64,000 nt of DNA from Streptomyces sp. NBC_00490 (GTDB lineage Bacteria > Actinomycetota > Actinomycetes > Streptomycetales > Streptomycetaceae). Numbering within the stretch: position 1 is the first letter of the stretch; the number at the start of each line of letters is the position of its first letter. Of the stretch, positions 2,914 to 62,122 are shown one piece after another. The notes beneath the pieces are model-generated. The model was not told where the DNA came from, did no database searches, and was given only the letters and a program-made list of their open reading frames with translations. Made by a program: the position numbers and the translations under genes. Location of the stretch: assembly GCF_036013645.1 (NCBI RefSeq), contig NZ_CP107869.1, positions 2,976,001 to 3,040,000 on the forward strand. Direction: 5' to 3'.

Positions 2914-3966
2914 TCAGACGGACAGGGCGTCCAGAAGGCGGTCGACGTCCGCGGTGGTGTTGTAGAGATGGAAGGCGGCGCGCAGATTGCCCGCGCGGTC
3001 GGAGACCTCGATGCCCGCCGCGCTCAACGCGGGCTGTCGCGCGCCGAGTCCGGGGACGGAGACGATCGCCGAGCCGGGGGCCGGCACCGGTTCGTGGCCG
3101 AGGGCGGCGAGGCCCGCGCGGAAGCGGTCGGCCAGGGAGAGGTCGTGGGCGTGGATGGCGGCCACGTCGAGTTCCTCGATCAGGGAGAGGGAGGCGCGCA
3201 GGCCGGCGTAGCTGAACAGGGCGGGGCTGATGTCGAACCGGCGGGCGGAGTGGGCGAGTTCGGCGATCGGACCGTAGCAGCTGTTCCAGGGGATCTCGCC
3301 CGCCACCCAGCCGGCCAACAGGGGGGTCAGGGCGCCGAAGTCCTCCGGGACCACCAGGAAGGCGGCGCCGTGCGGACCGAGCAGCCACTTGAAGCCGGTG
3401 GAGACGGTGTAGTCGTACTCGGTCGCGTCCATGGCCAGCCATCCGGCGGCCTGGGAGAAGTCGACGTAGGTCCGGGCCCCGTGCGCCCGGGCGGCCTCGC
3501 GCAGCGCGGGCAGATCCGCGACACGGCCGTCGGCGGACTGGGCGGCGCTGACCGCGACGAGGGCGGTCTCCGGACGGACCGACTCGGCGAGCCGCTCCAG
3601 GGGGACGATGCGGACCTTGAGGTCGCCCCGGGCGTGGAAGGGGTTCACGACGGACGTGAAGTCGTCCTCCGCGGTGAGGACTTCGGCGCCCGCGGGAAGC
3701 GAGGCCGCGACCAGTCCGGAGTAGGTGGAGACGGAGGCGCCGGCCGCCACCCGGTGCGCCGGCACCGCGGCCAGCCGGGCGAAGGCCGCGCGGGCCGCCT
3801 CCACGTCCTCGAACAGCGGGTCCAGCGGCCTGCCCTCGGCGCGGATCCTCGTGGCCTCCGTCAGGGCGGTCACGGTGCGGGCGGGGAGCATACCGCTGGA
3901 CGCGGTGTTCAGATAGGTGTTCTTCGGGGCGAACTCGGAACGGACGAGGCTCTCGAAGGTCTCCAT
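2914..3966 (-). CDS. Class V aminotransferase-fold PLP-dependent enzyme
   Basis: The 350-residue protein has the cysteine-desulfurase/aminotransferase class V fold. The N-terminal substrate loop is YLNTASSGMLP, the cofactor-ring Asp169 is in TYVDFSQAAGW, and the Schiff-base lysine is Lys193 in STGFKWLLGPHG. The family includes desulfurases, kynureninase-like and isopenicillin-epimerase-like enzymes; the substrate here cannot be assigned. A lone C-S lyase-type cysteine is not evident, so I do not call it a desulfurase. It sits in a leftward run, 97 bases downstream of the FrnE-like gene, with a palindrome at 4018-4034 in the gap. No strong ribosome-binding site precedes the ATG. Confidence 0.82.
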   Translation of the reverse strand: METFESLVRSEFAPKNTYLNTASSGMLPARTVTALTEATRIRAEGRPLDPLFEDVEAARAAFARLAAVPAHRVAAGASVSTYSGLVAASLPAGAEVLTAEDDFTSVVNPFHARGDLKVRIVPLERLAESVRPETALVAVSAAQSADGRVADLPALREAARAHGARTYVDFSQAAGWLAMDATEYDYTVSTGFKWLLGPHGAAFLVVPEDFGALTPLLAGWVAGEIPWNSCYGPIAELAHSARRFDISPALFSYAGLRASLSLIEELDVAAIHAHDLSLADRFRAGLAALGHEPVPAPGSAIVSVPGLGARQPALSAAGIEVSDRAGNLRAAFHLYNTTADVDRLLDALSV

Positions 3967-60104: not shown

Positions 60105-61685
60105 TCAGGCGGCCCAGGGCCAGTCGGCGTCCCGGGCGCTCTCCAGCAGCGGCACCATCCGGAAAGCCGCGTCCGAGAGACCACCGAAGGTGTGCCGGTT
60201 CGCCTTGCCGGAGGGGCCGTGGCCCGCGCGGTAGCCGGCCAGGTTCCAGGTGTAGACCGGCACATGGTCGGGGACCTGCTGGGTCGGGTCGCCGTGCCGG
60301 TTGAACGTGTACTGCTCGTCGGTGACGATCAGCACCCGGTCCTGCCCCCGGTAGTGCGCACGGACCGCCGAGGTGGTGTCGGTGCCGCCCAGGTCGCCGA
60401 AGCGGCCCAGGATCTTCAGCACCGACTCGCCGTTGTCGTACGCCAGGTTCCGGCTCGTGGTGCCGAACTCGACGAGGTCCGCCTGCTCGGCCCGCAGCGC
60501 CAGCGCCGTGCCGAAGATCGCCGCCGCGTCGGCCCGGTTGAGCTCCGAGCGGTCCGACAGCCGCGCCCACATCGAGCCCGAACGGTCGACCAGGACCAGC
60601 GTCCGGCCGGCCAGCGCGGGCACATTGGCCAGCGAGTGGCCGAGCGCCTGCTCCAGCGGGTACGCCCAGCGCAGCGAGGGCGCGTGCTGGTACGCGGCCA
60701 GGTACCGGAAGGGGAACTGTCGCGACCGCGCGACCTCGGCCGGGTCGCTGATGCGCGCCGCGACCTGGGCCGCGACCTCGTCCGAGACACCGGCCTGGTC
60801 GAAGTTGCGCAGGTTGCGGACGAGCGCCATGGCACCCATGGACGGGATCACGGCCTCCCAGGCCGCCTTGTCCATCGGGCCCTGGAGCCATCCGGCCAGC
60901 GCCTCCCACGTCATCCCGGCCGCCGCGAGCCGCTCGGCGCCGCCCTCGGACGTGACGACCGCACGCCGCCGCTCGACCGGCACCGCCATCAGCTCGCGGT
61001 GCGCGGTGAGCACGGTGTTCGACGCGGGCGGCACGGCCGTGTCCGGGTTGTGCCGGCGGTCGAGCGCGTACCGGAACAGCTCGCCCTGCCACGGCTTGTC
61101 CGCGTCGGGCGCCGCGTGCACCAGGTTCAGGATGTCCCCGAAGCGGTAGCCCTTGGACGCGGTGTCGTACTTCAGCAGCGACTTGCCGTTGTAGAGACGC
61201 TGTACCGCGTCGGCGACTCCGCGCTTGACGGGCTTGGGCACCGCGCGGCCGTACGTCGCCGTCCAGCACCCGAGCAGTTCGCCGGGCTCGTCCGGGCGCC
61301 GCAGCACCGAGGCGATGACCTGCCGGTTGGCCGGGCCGTCGGTGACGCCCGCGTCGAGGCGTGCCTTGACGTACTCGGCGGCGCCCACGATCGAGGCCGT
61401 ACGGAGGTTGCCCTCGCCGCGCAGCCAGCCGAGCAGGCCGGCCGTCCACGCGGGGTCCTCGACGGCGAGCTGCCGCACGAGGCGTACGTAACGGTCGTCA
61501 CGGTCGGCGCCGGACTCGTAGAAGGTCTGCTGCGAGACGAAGTTGGCGATCGCCAGCAGAAAGAGTTCGGAACGCGCGTCCCGCTCATGACCGCGGCCGC
61601 CCTCGTACGACCGGAGTACTCGTCCGGTGGAGGTGACACGCGAGGTGGGCTGAGCTCGTGCCGCCTTCTTGTTGAATCGCGCCAT
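60105..61685 (-). CDS. TROVE domain protein (Ro60/Rsr orthologue)
   Basis: The 526-residue RNA-binding protein has an N-terminal TROVE HEAT-repeat ring (about 15-350; GGRGHERDARSELFLLAIAN, RRPDEPGELLGCWTATYG) and a C-terminal von Willebrand A domain with an intact MIDAS: DRSGSM (about residue 366), GGTDTTSAVRAHYRG and LIVTDEQ. The family binds Y RNAs on the ring's outer face and misfolded or degraded RNA in its hole. ATG 61685 has GGGGGA upstream. Directly upstream on the same strand are two tRNA-like RNA candidates, the expected Y RNA partners. Confidence 0.93.
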   Translation of the reverse strand: MARFNKKAARAQPTSRVTSTGRVLRSYEGGRGHERDARSELFLLAIANFVSQQTFYESGADRDDRYVRLVRQLAVEDPAWTAGLLGWLRGEGNLRTASIVGAAEYVKARLDAGVTDGPANRQVIASVLRRPDEPGELLGCWTATYGRAVPKPVKRGVADAVQRLYNGKSLLKYDTASKGYRFGDILNLVHAAPDADKPWQGELFRYALDRRHNPDTAVPPASNTVLTAHRELMAVPVERRRAVVTSEGGAERLAAAGMTWEALAGWLQGPMDKAAWEAVIPSMGAMALVRNLRNFDQAGVSDEVAAQVAARISDPAEVARSRQFPFRYLAAYQHAPSLRWAYPLEQALGHSLANVPALAGRTLVLVDRSGSMWARLSDRSELNRADAAAIFGTALALRAEQADLVEFGTTSRNLAYDNGESVLKILGRFGDLGGTDTTSAVRAHYRGQDRVLIVTDEQYTFNRHGDPTQQVPDHVPVYTWNLAGYRAGHGPSGKANRHTFGGLSDAAFRMVPLLESARDADWPWAA

Positions 61686-61724
61686 GGTGAATTCCCCCGA
61701 ATTCATTGTCTTTTCGGAGGGAGG

Positions 61725-61960
61725 CGCAACAAAAGGAGGGTGTCCGAGGTCGAAGTCGACTGCGGTGACCATAAACTGGCGCGTCTTCCGTTCCGCCACA
61801 CCGGCCCTGGGCCGATGACGGGATTCGAACCCGCACGAGGGACTCGCCCCCACCAGTTCCCGAAGTATCCGCCGCCTGCGCACCGGGCACCCACCTTGAG
61901 CTGCGCCTCCCCGAGATCAAAATGCTTCGCACCGGGAGGTGCATGAAGTTGTGGTGTCCA
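61725..61960 (-). ncRNA. Y RNA-like, tRNA-mimicking RNA, unit 2
   Basis: Read on the minus strand: stem CACCA (61956-61952) with TGGTG (61855-61851) encloses a long arm. Its tip is CTTC-AT-GCACC, loop TCCC, GGTGC-GAAG (61948-61925). Then come a T-arm (GCGGG, TTCGAAT, CCCGT; 61834-61818), a closed acceptor-like hairpin CATCGGC/GCCGGTG with loop CCAGG (61817-61799) and a tRNA-Leu-like D-arm GCG...CGC (61796-61781). Two hairpins and a T-rich stretch (to about 61727) may end it. T-arm to acceptor to D-arm is a circularly permuted tRNA order, as known for bacterial Y RNAs. The TROVE gene follows directly. Ends are approximate. Confidence 0.6.
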
Positions 61961-61961
61961 G

Positions 61962-62122
61962 AGTTCAGGTCGGCGGAACCGACATTAGGTGCTCTAACCC
62001 CTGAGCTACACCGGCGCGTTGTACCGGTGGCGGGACTCGAACCCGCGGCCGCCCCATTATCAGTGGAAGTAGGTCCTGCCTTCGCACCTGGACGTTCATC
62101 ACTGTAGGAGGGCGGCCGCGGA
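61962..62122 (-). ncRNA. Y RNA-like, tRNA-mimicking RNA, unit 1
   Basis: On the minus strand a 10-bp stem GCGGCCGCCC (62119-62110) with GGGCGGCCGC (62054-62045) encloses an arm. That arm contains CAGTG/CACTG (62104-62100 with 62065-62061) and the GGTGCGAAGG motif shared with unit 2. Next are a perfect T-arm (GCGGG, TTCGAGT, CCCGC; 62046-62030), a closed acceptor-like hairpin CACCGG/CCGGTG (62029-62009), a canonical D-arm GCTC-AGGGGTTA-GAGC (62006-61991) and GTCGG/CCGAC (61983-61969 region). Same permuted tRNA plan as unit 2. A standard tRNA is excluded because no anticodon arm joins D- and T-arms. Confidence 0.6.

Follow-up and report, generated by a model that had tools for sequence, protein, structure and literature searches.

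TROVE proteins are bacterial cousins of the human lupus antigen Ro60. The Y RNAs that accompany proteins of this family attach to the Ro ring by their basal stem; their tRNA-like domain is a binding site for PNPase and is recognised by tRNA-modifying enzymes (PMC8394870, PMC4726728 and PMC7790460, in the sections available of each). Criteria for a YrlA-type bacterial Y RNA include binding by Ro60, D and pseudouridine bases and a tether to PNPase. The vertebrate Ro60 site on Y RNA comprises a 7-bp helix, a bulged C and a 3-nt bulge opposite (PMC4726728, same sections). Salmonella encodes two Y RNAs with a Ro60 homologue in the rsr-yrlBA-rtcBA operon (PMC7790460, in part), and in Deinococcus Rsr, Y RNA and PNPase make up RYPER (PMC8394870, in part).

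We analysed a candidate system of this kind in a 64,000-nucleotide stretch of Streptomyces sp. NBC_00490 (the window). On its minus strand, the gap between the stop of a PhoX-like gene (62140; PF05787 match) and the start of a TROVE gene (61685) is occupied by three RNA elements, Y1, a middle element and Y2. The other neighbours are FCD/GntR and PALP genes. The features of the locus are as follows.

62101..62106, minus strand: −10-like hexamer TACAGT, separated by 7 nt from the closing helix of Y1; putative promoter element
61956..62093, minus strand: Y1, a Y RNA-like element whose class I tRNA module is permuted between the D-arm and the anticodon arm (YrlA match; pair counts in alignment A4; 77.0 bits with model R2)
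62052..62068, minus strand: anticodon-arm-like hairpin of Y1, TTCCA / loop CTGATAA / TGGGG (pattern in 56 of 56 loci)
62030..62046, minus strand: T-arm of Y1 (pair counts)
61991..62029, minus strand: closed acceptor-like stem (7 bp, 7-nt loop) and D-arm of Y1 (pair counts)
61906..61941, minus strand: middle Y element, truncated in the window (36.9 bits with model R1)
61738..61892, minus strand: Y2, a Y RNA-like element whose permuted tRNA module is of Leu-type class II (pair counts in alignment A2; RNAalifold; 85.5 bits with model R2)
61836..61852, minus strand: long variable arm of Y2 (pair counts; the weakest helix, with 69.7% of cells paired)
61818..61834, minus strand: T-arm of Y2 (pair counts)
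61780..61817, minus strand: closed acceptor-like stem and Leu-type D-arm of Y2 (pair counts; D-arm comparison)
61689..61704, minus strand: GAATTC-GGGG-GAATTC repeat covering the probable ribosome-binding site of TROVE (73 of 80 loci)
60105..61685, minus strand: TROVE (Ro60-like) protein, 526 aa (PF05731; PDB relatives)

The initial annotation had placed two minus-strand units with a common module order here, and this order is borne out between 62140 and 61685: Y1 and Y2 each run from a stem strand through a T-arm, an acceptor-like stem closed by a short loop and a D-arm to the second stem strand. Both annotated units are real, but the count of two had merged the middle element (61906-61941) into unit 2. 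The sequence GGTGCGAAG, which had been given to unit 2, in fact sits at 61925-61933 within this separate hairpin, and Y2 has its own GGTGCGCAGG at 61875-61884. The proposed closed acceptor-like stems form 7 of 7 pairs in both units (CACCGGT/GCCGGTG in unit 1, CATCGGC/GCCGGTG in unit 2; G-U allowed), and the D-arms are class I in unit 1 and Leu-type in unit 2, as annotated for the window. To that description we add the anticodon-like arm of unit 1 (62052-62068) and the long variable arm of unit 2 (61836-61852). The middle element of the window keeps the lower helix with GGTGCG and GATCTC and has lost its upper part. The gaps between the elements are 14 and 13 nt.

The covariance search that had been proposed for these RNAs gave a match beyond chance for unit 1 and not for unit 2. 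Scanned over 651 bases, the Rfam YrlA model (RF02553) scores 35.0 bits (E 7e-6) on Y1, where the alignment covers 62058-61982, and 15.7 bits (E 2.5) on Y2; both values are below the curated cut-off of 69 bits. The window, 18 further loci and 41 genomes contain no YrlA match at or above this cut-off. The best score in the 41 genomes, 58.4 bits, lies just upstream of the TROVE gene of genome G012. The model also matches in seven of 14 control genomes and on tandem tRNA pairs, and so a bare YrlA match is insufficient for identification. Because the scores stay under the cut-off, the window RNAs are divergent YrlA-like relatives and not members of RF02553. At its cut-off the current Rfam model misses the Streptomyces branch in the genomes tried.

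The array has further traits of YrlA-type RNAs. The elements are encoded beside a Ro60/TROVE gene in the window and in 79 of 79 usable comparison loci. A tRNA-like domain with D, T and acceptor arms is present in Y1 and Y2 and absent from the middle element. The 5′ and 3′ ends form a long stem, whose lower helices are paired in 96.7-100% of cells; these helices are invariant in the middle element and Y1, and there is therefore no covariation there. In the place of the vertebrate Ro60 site, the array elements have a conserved internal loop, GGUGCG / GAWCUC, and the vertebrate form is not seen in them.

The comparison set consists of Streptomyces TROVE loci L001-L080, the best 80 of 186 relatives. 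One of them (L071) starts at the TROVE gene and was dropped, leaving 79 usable loci, or 80 with the window. Every one of the 79 carries a middle element, together with one or more elements that have a tRNA module. Y1 is present in 58 of 80 loci, window included. The middle element, which in its full form is a Y-type element without a tRNA module, is full in 68 of 80 loci and short in 12, among them the window (L051 was counted by eye). At the Y2 position, where the window has a Leu-type module, other species hold a class I module: 42 of the 80 Y2 elements are class I, 36 are class II (Leu-type) and two (L011 and L043) are without a tRNA module. The initial reading of the two units as a duplication, one canonical and one Leu-type, therefore stands for the D-arm types in the window, but not as a simple duplication, because the array has three elements and swapped modules. 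A pattern search took 211 elements, comprising 56 of the 58 Y1 (L043 and L056 differ in motif), 79 middle elements and 41 and 35 Y2. All 211, a set found partly by these motifs, have GGTGCG towards the 5′ end and, towards the 3′ end, YTCKGG or CTCGG.

Pair counts were made on MAFFT alignments built without structure, with shuffles as control (Y2 class I, A1, 41 of 42; Y2 class II, A2, 35 of 36, the pattern having missed L057 and L002; middle element, A3, 63 distinct of 67 full elements, or of 68 with L051; Y1, A4, 51 distinct of the 56 pattern-found). Paired cells amount to 98.0% in A1, 96.1% in A2, 96.2% in A3 and 99.9% in A4, as against about 30-65% when the 3′ partner is slid by 1-3 columns. 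Two-sided pairs number 11 in A1 (3.8 in shuffles), 15 in A2 (7.4) and six in A3 (2.5). For Y1 there are three, against 1.5, and 29 of 500 shuffles do as well; additional pair types in Y1 show no excess over shuffles (410/500); covariation is weak here because the Y1 sequence is so conserved. The compensatory changes that the initial annotation had proposed to look for upstream of other Streptomyces TROVE genes are thus present in Y2 and the middle element and weak in Y1. The fused acceptor halves of Y2 co-vary with each other in both class I and class II (in A1 the acceptor stem of locus L070 is out of register), and RNAalifold, unaided, recovers the main helices of class II Y2 and of the middle element. 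Folding energy gives no support (z 0.74 and −0.79), and the minimum-energy folds differ from the conserved ones, at −54.4 versus −48.1 kcal/mol for unit 1 and −69.4 versus −56.1 kcal/mol for unit 2; we rejected it as evidence on both grounds.

Read in tRNA order, Y2 of the window resembles tRNA-Leu, with D-arm TGGCGGAACGGAAGACGCG, anticodon stem CCAGTT/AACTGG, variable arm, T-arm and acceptor; the genome's own tRNA-Leu is found in loci L147, L149 and L150. D-arms were compared with 83 tRNA sequences called in 54 loci of the same genome, a set that covers some of 76 tRNA matches. The nearest D-arm is Leu for 35 of 35 class II Y2 and Val for 40 of 56 Y1, and is mixed for class I Y2 (L070 was misread in this comparison); the likenesses found for Y1 and class I Y2 are generic. 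Among 20 Y RNAs away from TROVE, the copies at the priA locus are nearest to Ser or Tyr (5/5), and those elsewhere to Glu in 11 of 15, with one Glu/Ser tie and three class I. That modules are exchanged while the stem stays constant suggests that what matters for effector function is overall tRNA shape and not one isotype. In genomic order, ARAGORN makes 19 tRNA calls on 165 Y RNAs cut out of all loci. With the pieces reordered as tRNA its calls were uninformative and carry no weight here: 56 of 56 Y1 were called, as were 899 of 1,120 constructs with a shuffled anticodon region and the majority of Y2 constructs (31 of 40 and 29 of 35).

On tRNA-Asn pairs, which are identical tRNA genes in tandem, the YrlA model scores about 40 bits, since the arms stand in the permuted order where two equal tRNAs meet. 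This order hints at how the modules could arise; capture from the point where tandem tRNA genes join is one possible source.

The anticodon-like arm of Y1 has a 5-bp stem and a 7-nt CTNNNNA loop in 56 of 56 elements, and is followed by 5 nt (CGGCC, CGGTC, AGGCC or AGGTC in 51 of 51 aligned rows) and then the T-arm, which is the canonical layout. Of shuffled versions of this segment, 2.3% form a 7-nt loop on a stem of 4 bp or more. The loops are of nine kinds: C32, U33 and A38 are kept, positions 34-35 vary, U36 is present in 55 of 56 and position 37 is a purine in 50 of 56. A similar hairpin occurs in 51 of 67 middle elements (0.7% of shuffles), 43 of the 51 having the form YTNNNRN (0.07% of shuffles); the other 16 of the 67 do not fit. 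CTNNNNA was not found in Y2 (0/41 and 0/35), whose anticodon stem pairs across, with no anticodon loop. Elsewhere it is present in 14 of 20 hand-picked extra loci and in nine of 13 chosen R3 matches (from 30 R3 loci), some of them in other families. Loops mostly have U36 beside TAGCTCA-type D-arms and often read NUC beside Glu-type D-arms, five Glu-type copies having a CUC loop. All of these anticodon-arm counts come from related, non-independent sequences.

The window protein matches the TROVE domain PF05731 with 50.9 bits (cut-off 23) over 60 residues, and its PDB TROVE relatives 9l5y and 9kop match at E about 3e-27 over two stretches. Co-occurrence was assessed with R1, a covariance model of the middle element that can also match other Y elements. 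In 197 genomes of the order, R1 and Pfam TROVE matches occur together in 109, TROVE alone in two (G158 and G264), RNA alone in three (G214, G235 and G308) and neither in 83 (Fisher p 3.5e-49, relatedness ignored). Within a sample of 150 genomes of the genus, R1 matches 79, and each of these belongs to the 90 genomes in which TROVE is matched. The 11 remaining TROVE-match genomes comprise seven with weak, partial TROVE matches only and four (G044, G059, G081 and G147) with a strong match and no R1; in G044 and G059 an R2 match adjoins TROVE.

Y elements also occur away from TROVE genes. The window genome has two without a tRNA module, at G000:C1:9864109-9864188 and 9855696-9855775 (L120:12110-12189 and 3697-3776, minus strand), inside a 194-nt repeat that is 91% alike between the two; the former lies ahead of a Ku domain gene (PF02735) and is itself preceded by a TAGGGT hexamer. 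In other Streptomyces, Y elements lie between metK and priA, with both genes seen in L122, L123, L124, L128, L140, L143 and L145 and one of the two in L144 and L146 (neighbours by Pfam for L122, L143 and L146, and read from translations for the others). Stand-alone Y RNAs with Glu-type D-arms are scattered over L130, L132-L139, L142 and L127, five of them with the CUC loop, and the Y element of L126 precedes a THAP4-like heme-binding gene. Another permuted tRNA-like stretch of the window genome, at G000:C1:3143235-3143372 (L151:235-372, minus strand), scores 37.9 bits with R2; ARAGORN calls an odd tRNA-Phe over part of it.

The initial proposal of a Y RNA system beside a Ro60-like gene is upheld by the YrlA match to unit 1 (below the cut-off), synteny, covariation and TROVE co-occurrence. 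We consider it likely that the region is a Y RNA array for the adjacent TROVE protein, whose RNAs bind it in trans and use their tRNA-like end to bring in an effector. In all 56 pattern-found Y1 loci, 7 nt separate a TANNNT hexamer from the closing helix of Y1, a fixed distance at which the start site would fall near the RNA end. The gaps of 14 and 13 nt are too short for separate promoters, pointing to one precursor. Most probably, a single promoter before Y1 would give a precursor containing Y1, the middle element and Y2, which, to judge from the gaps, would be cut into separate RNAs. In each RNA the ends would form the stem, with the common core 5′ GGUGCG and 3′ YUCKGG as the putative TROVE-binding part. 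The far end of Y1 would be a class I tRNA mimic opened between the D-arm and the anticodon arm, with its acceptor ends fused, and that of Y2 a Leu-type class II mimic opened in the anticodon loop. If the array works like the systems of Deinococcus and Salmonella, its stem would grip the Ro ring, leaving the tRNA-like end to recruit an effector such as PNPase or tRNA-modifying enzymes.

Alternatively, the array might stay in the TROVE mRNA as a cis-acting leader that binds TROVE and regulates its own expression, with no separate Y RNAs. This would fit the distance of only 52 nt from the Y2 helix to the TROVE start, the GAATTC-Gn-AATTC repeat that 73 of 80 loci keep across the likely ribosome-binding site and, by eye, the lack of a strong terminator after Y2. 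We regard it as unlikely, since stand-alone Y elements occur at places without TROVE, two of them in the window genome, and since the bacterial Y RNAs studied so far are separate RNAs (PMC8394870, in the part available). The kept anticodon loops call for a second reader of these RNAs, and therefore for the reading that actinobacterial Y RNAs are Ro60-tethered, swappable tRNA mimics whose loops are shown to a tRNA-directed enzyme. The anticodon-like arms and whole-tRNA modules would then act as decoys or sensors, baiting for example anticodon nucleases, and would not be a PNPase handle. The set of mimics would comprise whole tRNAs permuted between the D-arm and the anticodon arm (Y1, and Glu-type copies elsewhere), class II bodies that are Leu-like in Y2 and Ser/Tyr-like at the priA locus, and, in the middle element, an anticodon arm by itself. 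Such a role is only a tentative possibility. The arm is present in 56 of 56 Y1 and 51 of 67 middle elements with varied triplets, YrlA has been proposed as a possible competitive inhibitor of anticodon nuclease (PMC7790460, in part) and tRNA cleavage is known in Streptomyces coelicolor (PMC8628891, in part, citing Haiser 2008); against this, Y2 has no anticodon loop (0/41, 0/35), 16 of 67 middle elements do not fit, YrlA itself is uncut in Salmonella (PMC7790460, in the part available) and no such enzyme is known at the array. It could be compatible with a Y RNA array for TROVE.

Two further alternatives were weighed. In tandem or decayed tRNA genes, a T-arm followed by the D-arm of the next tRNA mimics permutation, and both the YrlA and R2 models match tandem tRNA-Asn pairs. 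We rejected this explanation for the window, where it is very improbable: ARAGORN calls no tRNA or tmRNA genes there, the fused acceptor halves of Y2 co-vary, and the outer stems are common to all three elements and absent from tRNA pairs. Tandem tRNA genes do explain the model matches in L111, L113 and L118. The initial annotation had also offered a fold in which GCCGGTG of unit 1 pairs with CATCGGC of unit 2, making one tRNA-like body with a large insert. These strands can pair 7/7 in the window, but do so in only 17 of 53 loci, as against 51 of 53 for the units' own stems, and 22 loci have unit 2 without unit 1, leaving this fold with almost no credence.

A Y RNA array for TROVE of this form bears on why bacterial Y RNAs copy tRNA. 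It offers a natural swap set in which the Ro-type stem is constant and the tRNA part is changed (class I, Leu, Glu, Ser/Tyr-like or anticodon arm only), letting one ask which tRNA feature the partner reads and whether the anticodon arm is bait for tRNA-cutting enzymes. In the open-licence literature covered, a selection outside the main bacterial Y RNA papers, we found nothing on Ro60 with Y RNA in Streptomyces or on bacterial Y RNAs with a tRNA-like module and a variable arm; nor did we meet there any printed account of the Leu-type module, of module swapping or of an anticodon-arm mimic.

In the permuted precursor of two-piece tmRNA, the acceptor halves are reversed in order and joined by a loop. 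The array shares this arrangement and differs in that its insert is a Ro-type stem at the anticodon side and that no tmRNA is called in the window. As in the Salmonella operon, more than one Y RNA is encoded with the Ro60 homologue, but rtcBA is not among the neighbours of the window locus (PhoX-like, FCD/GntR and PALP). The expected logic would be that of Deinococcus RYPER, with the stem leading to Ro and the other end to a nuclease; unlike in RYPER, the module varies in tRNA type. The closest relative is YrlA, with which the array shares the stem of the 5′ and 3′ ends, the order of T-arm, closed acceptor stem and D-arm, the Ro60 neighbour and a consensus that aligns to Y1. The Rfam YrlA model is class I without an anticodon hairpin; the array differs in its Leu-type class II Y2, in the anticodon arm of Y1 and in having three elements in tandem. 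Judged by its sequence features, the locus is a conserved Y RNA array of the known YrlA kind, in variant form.
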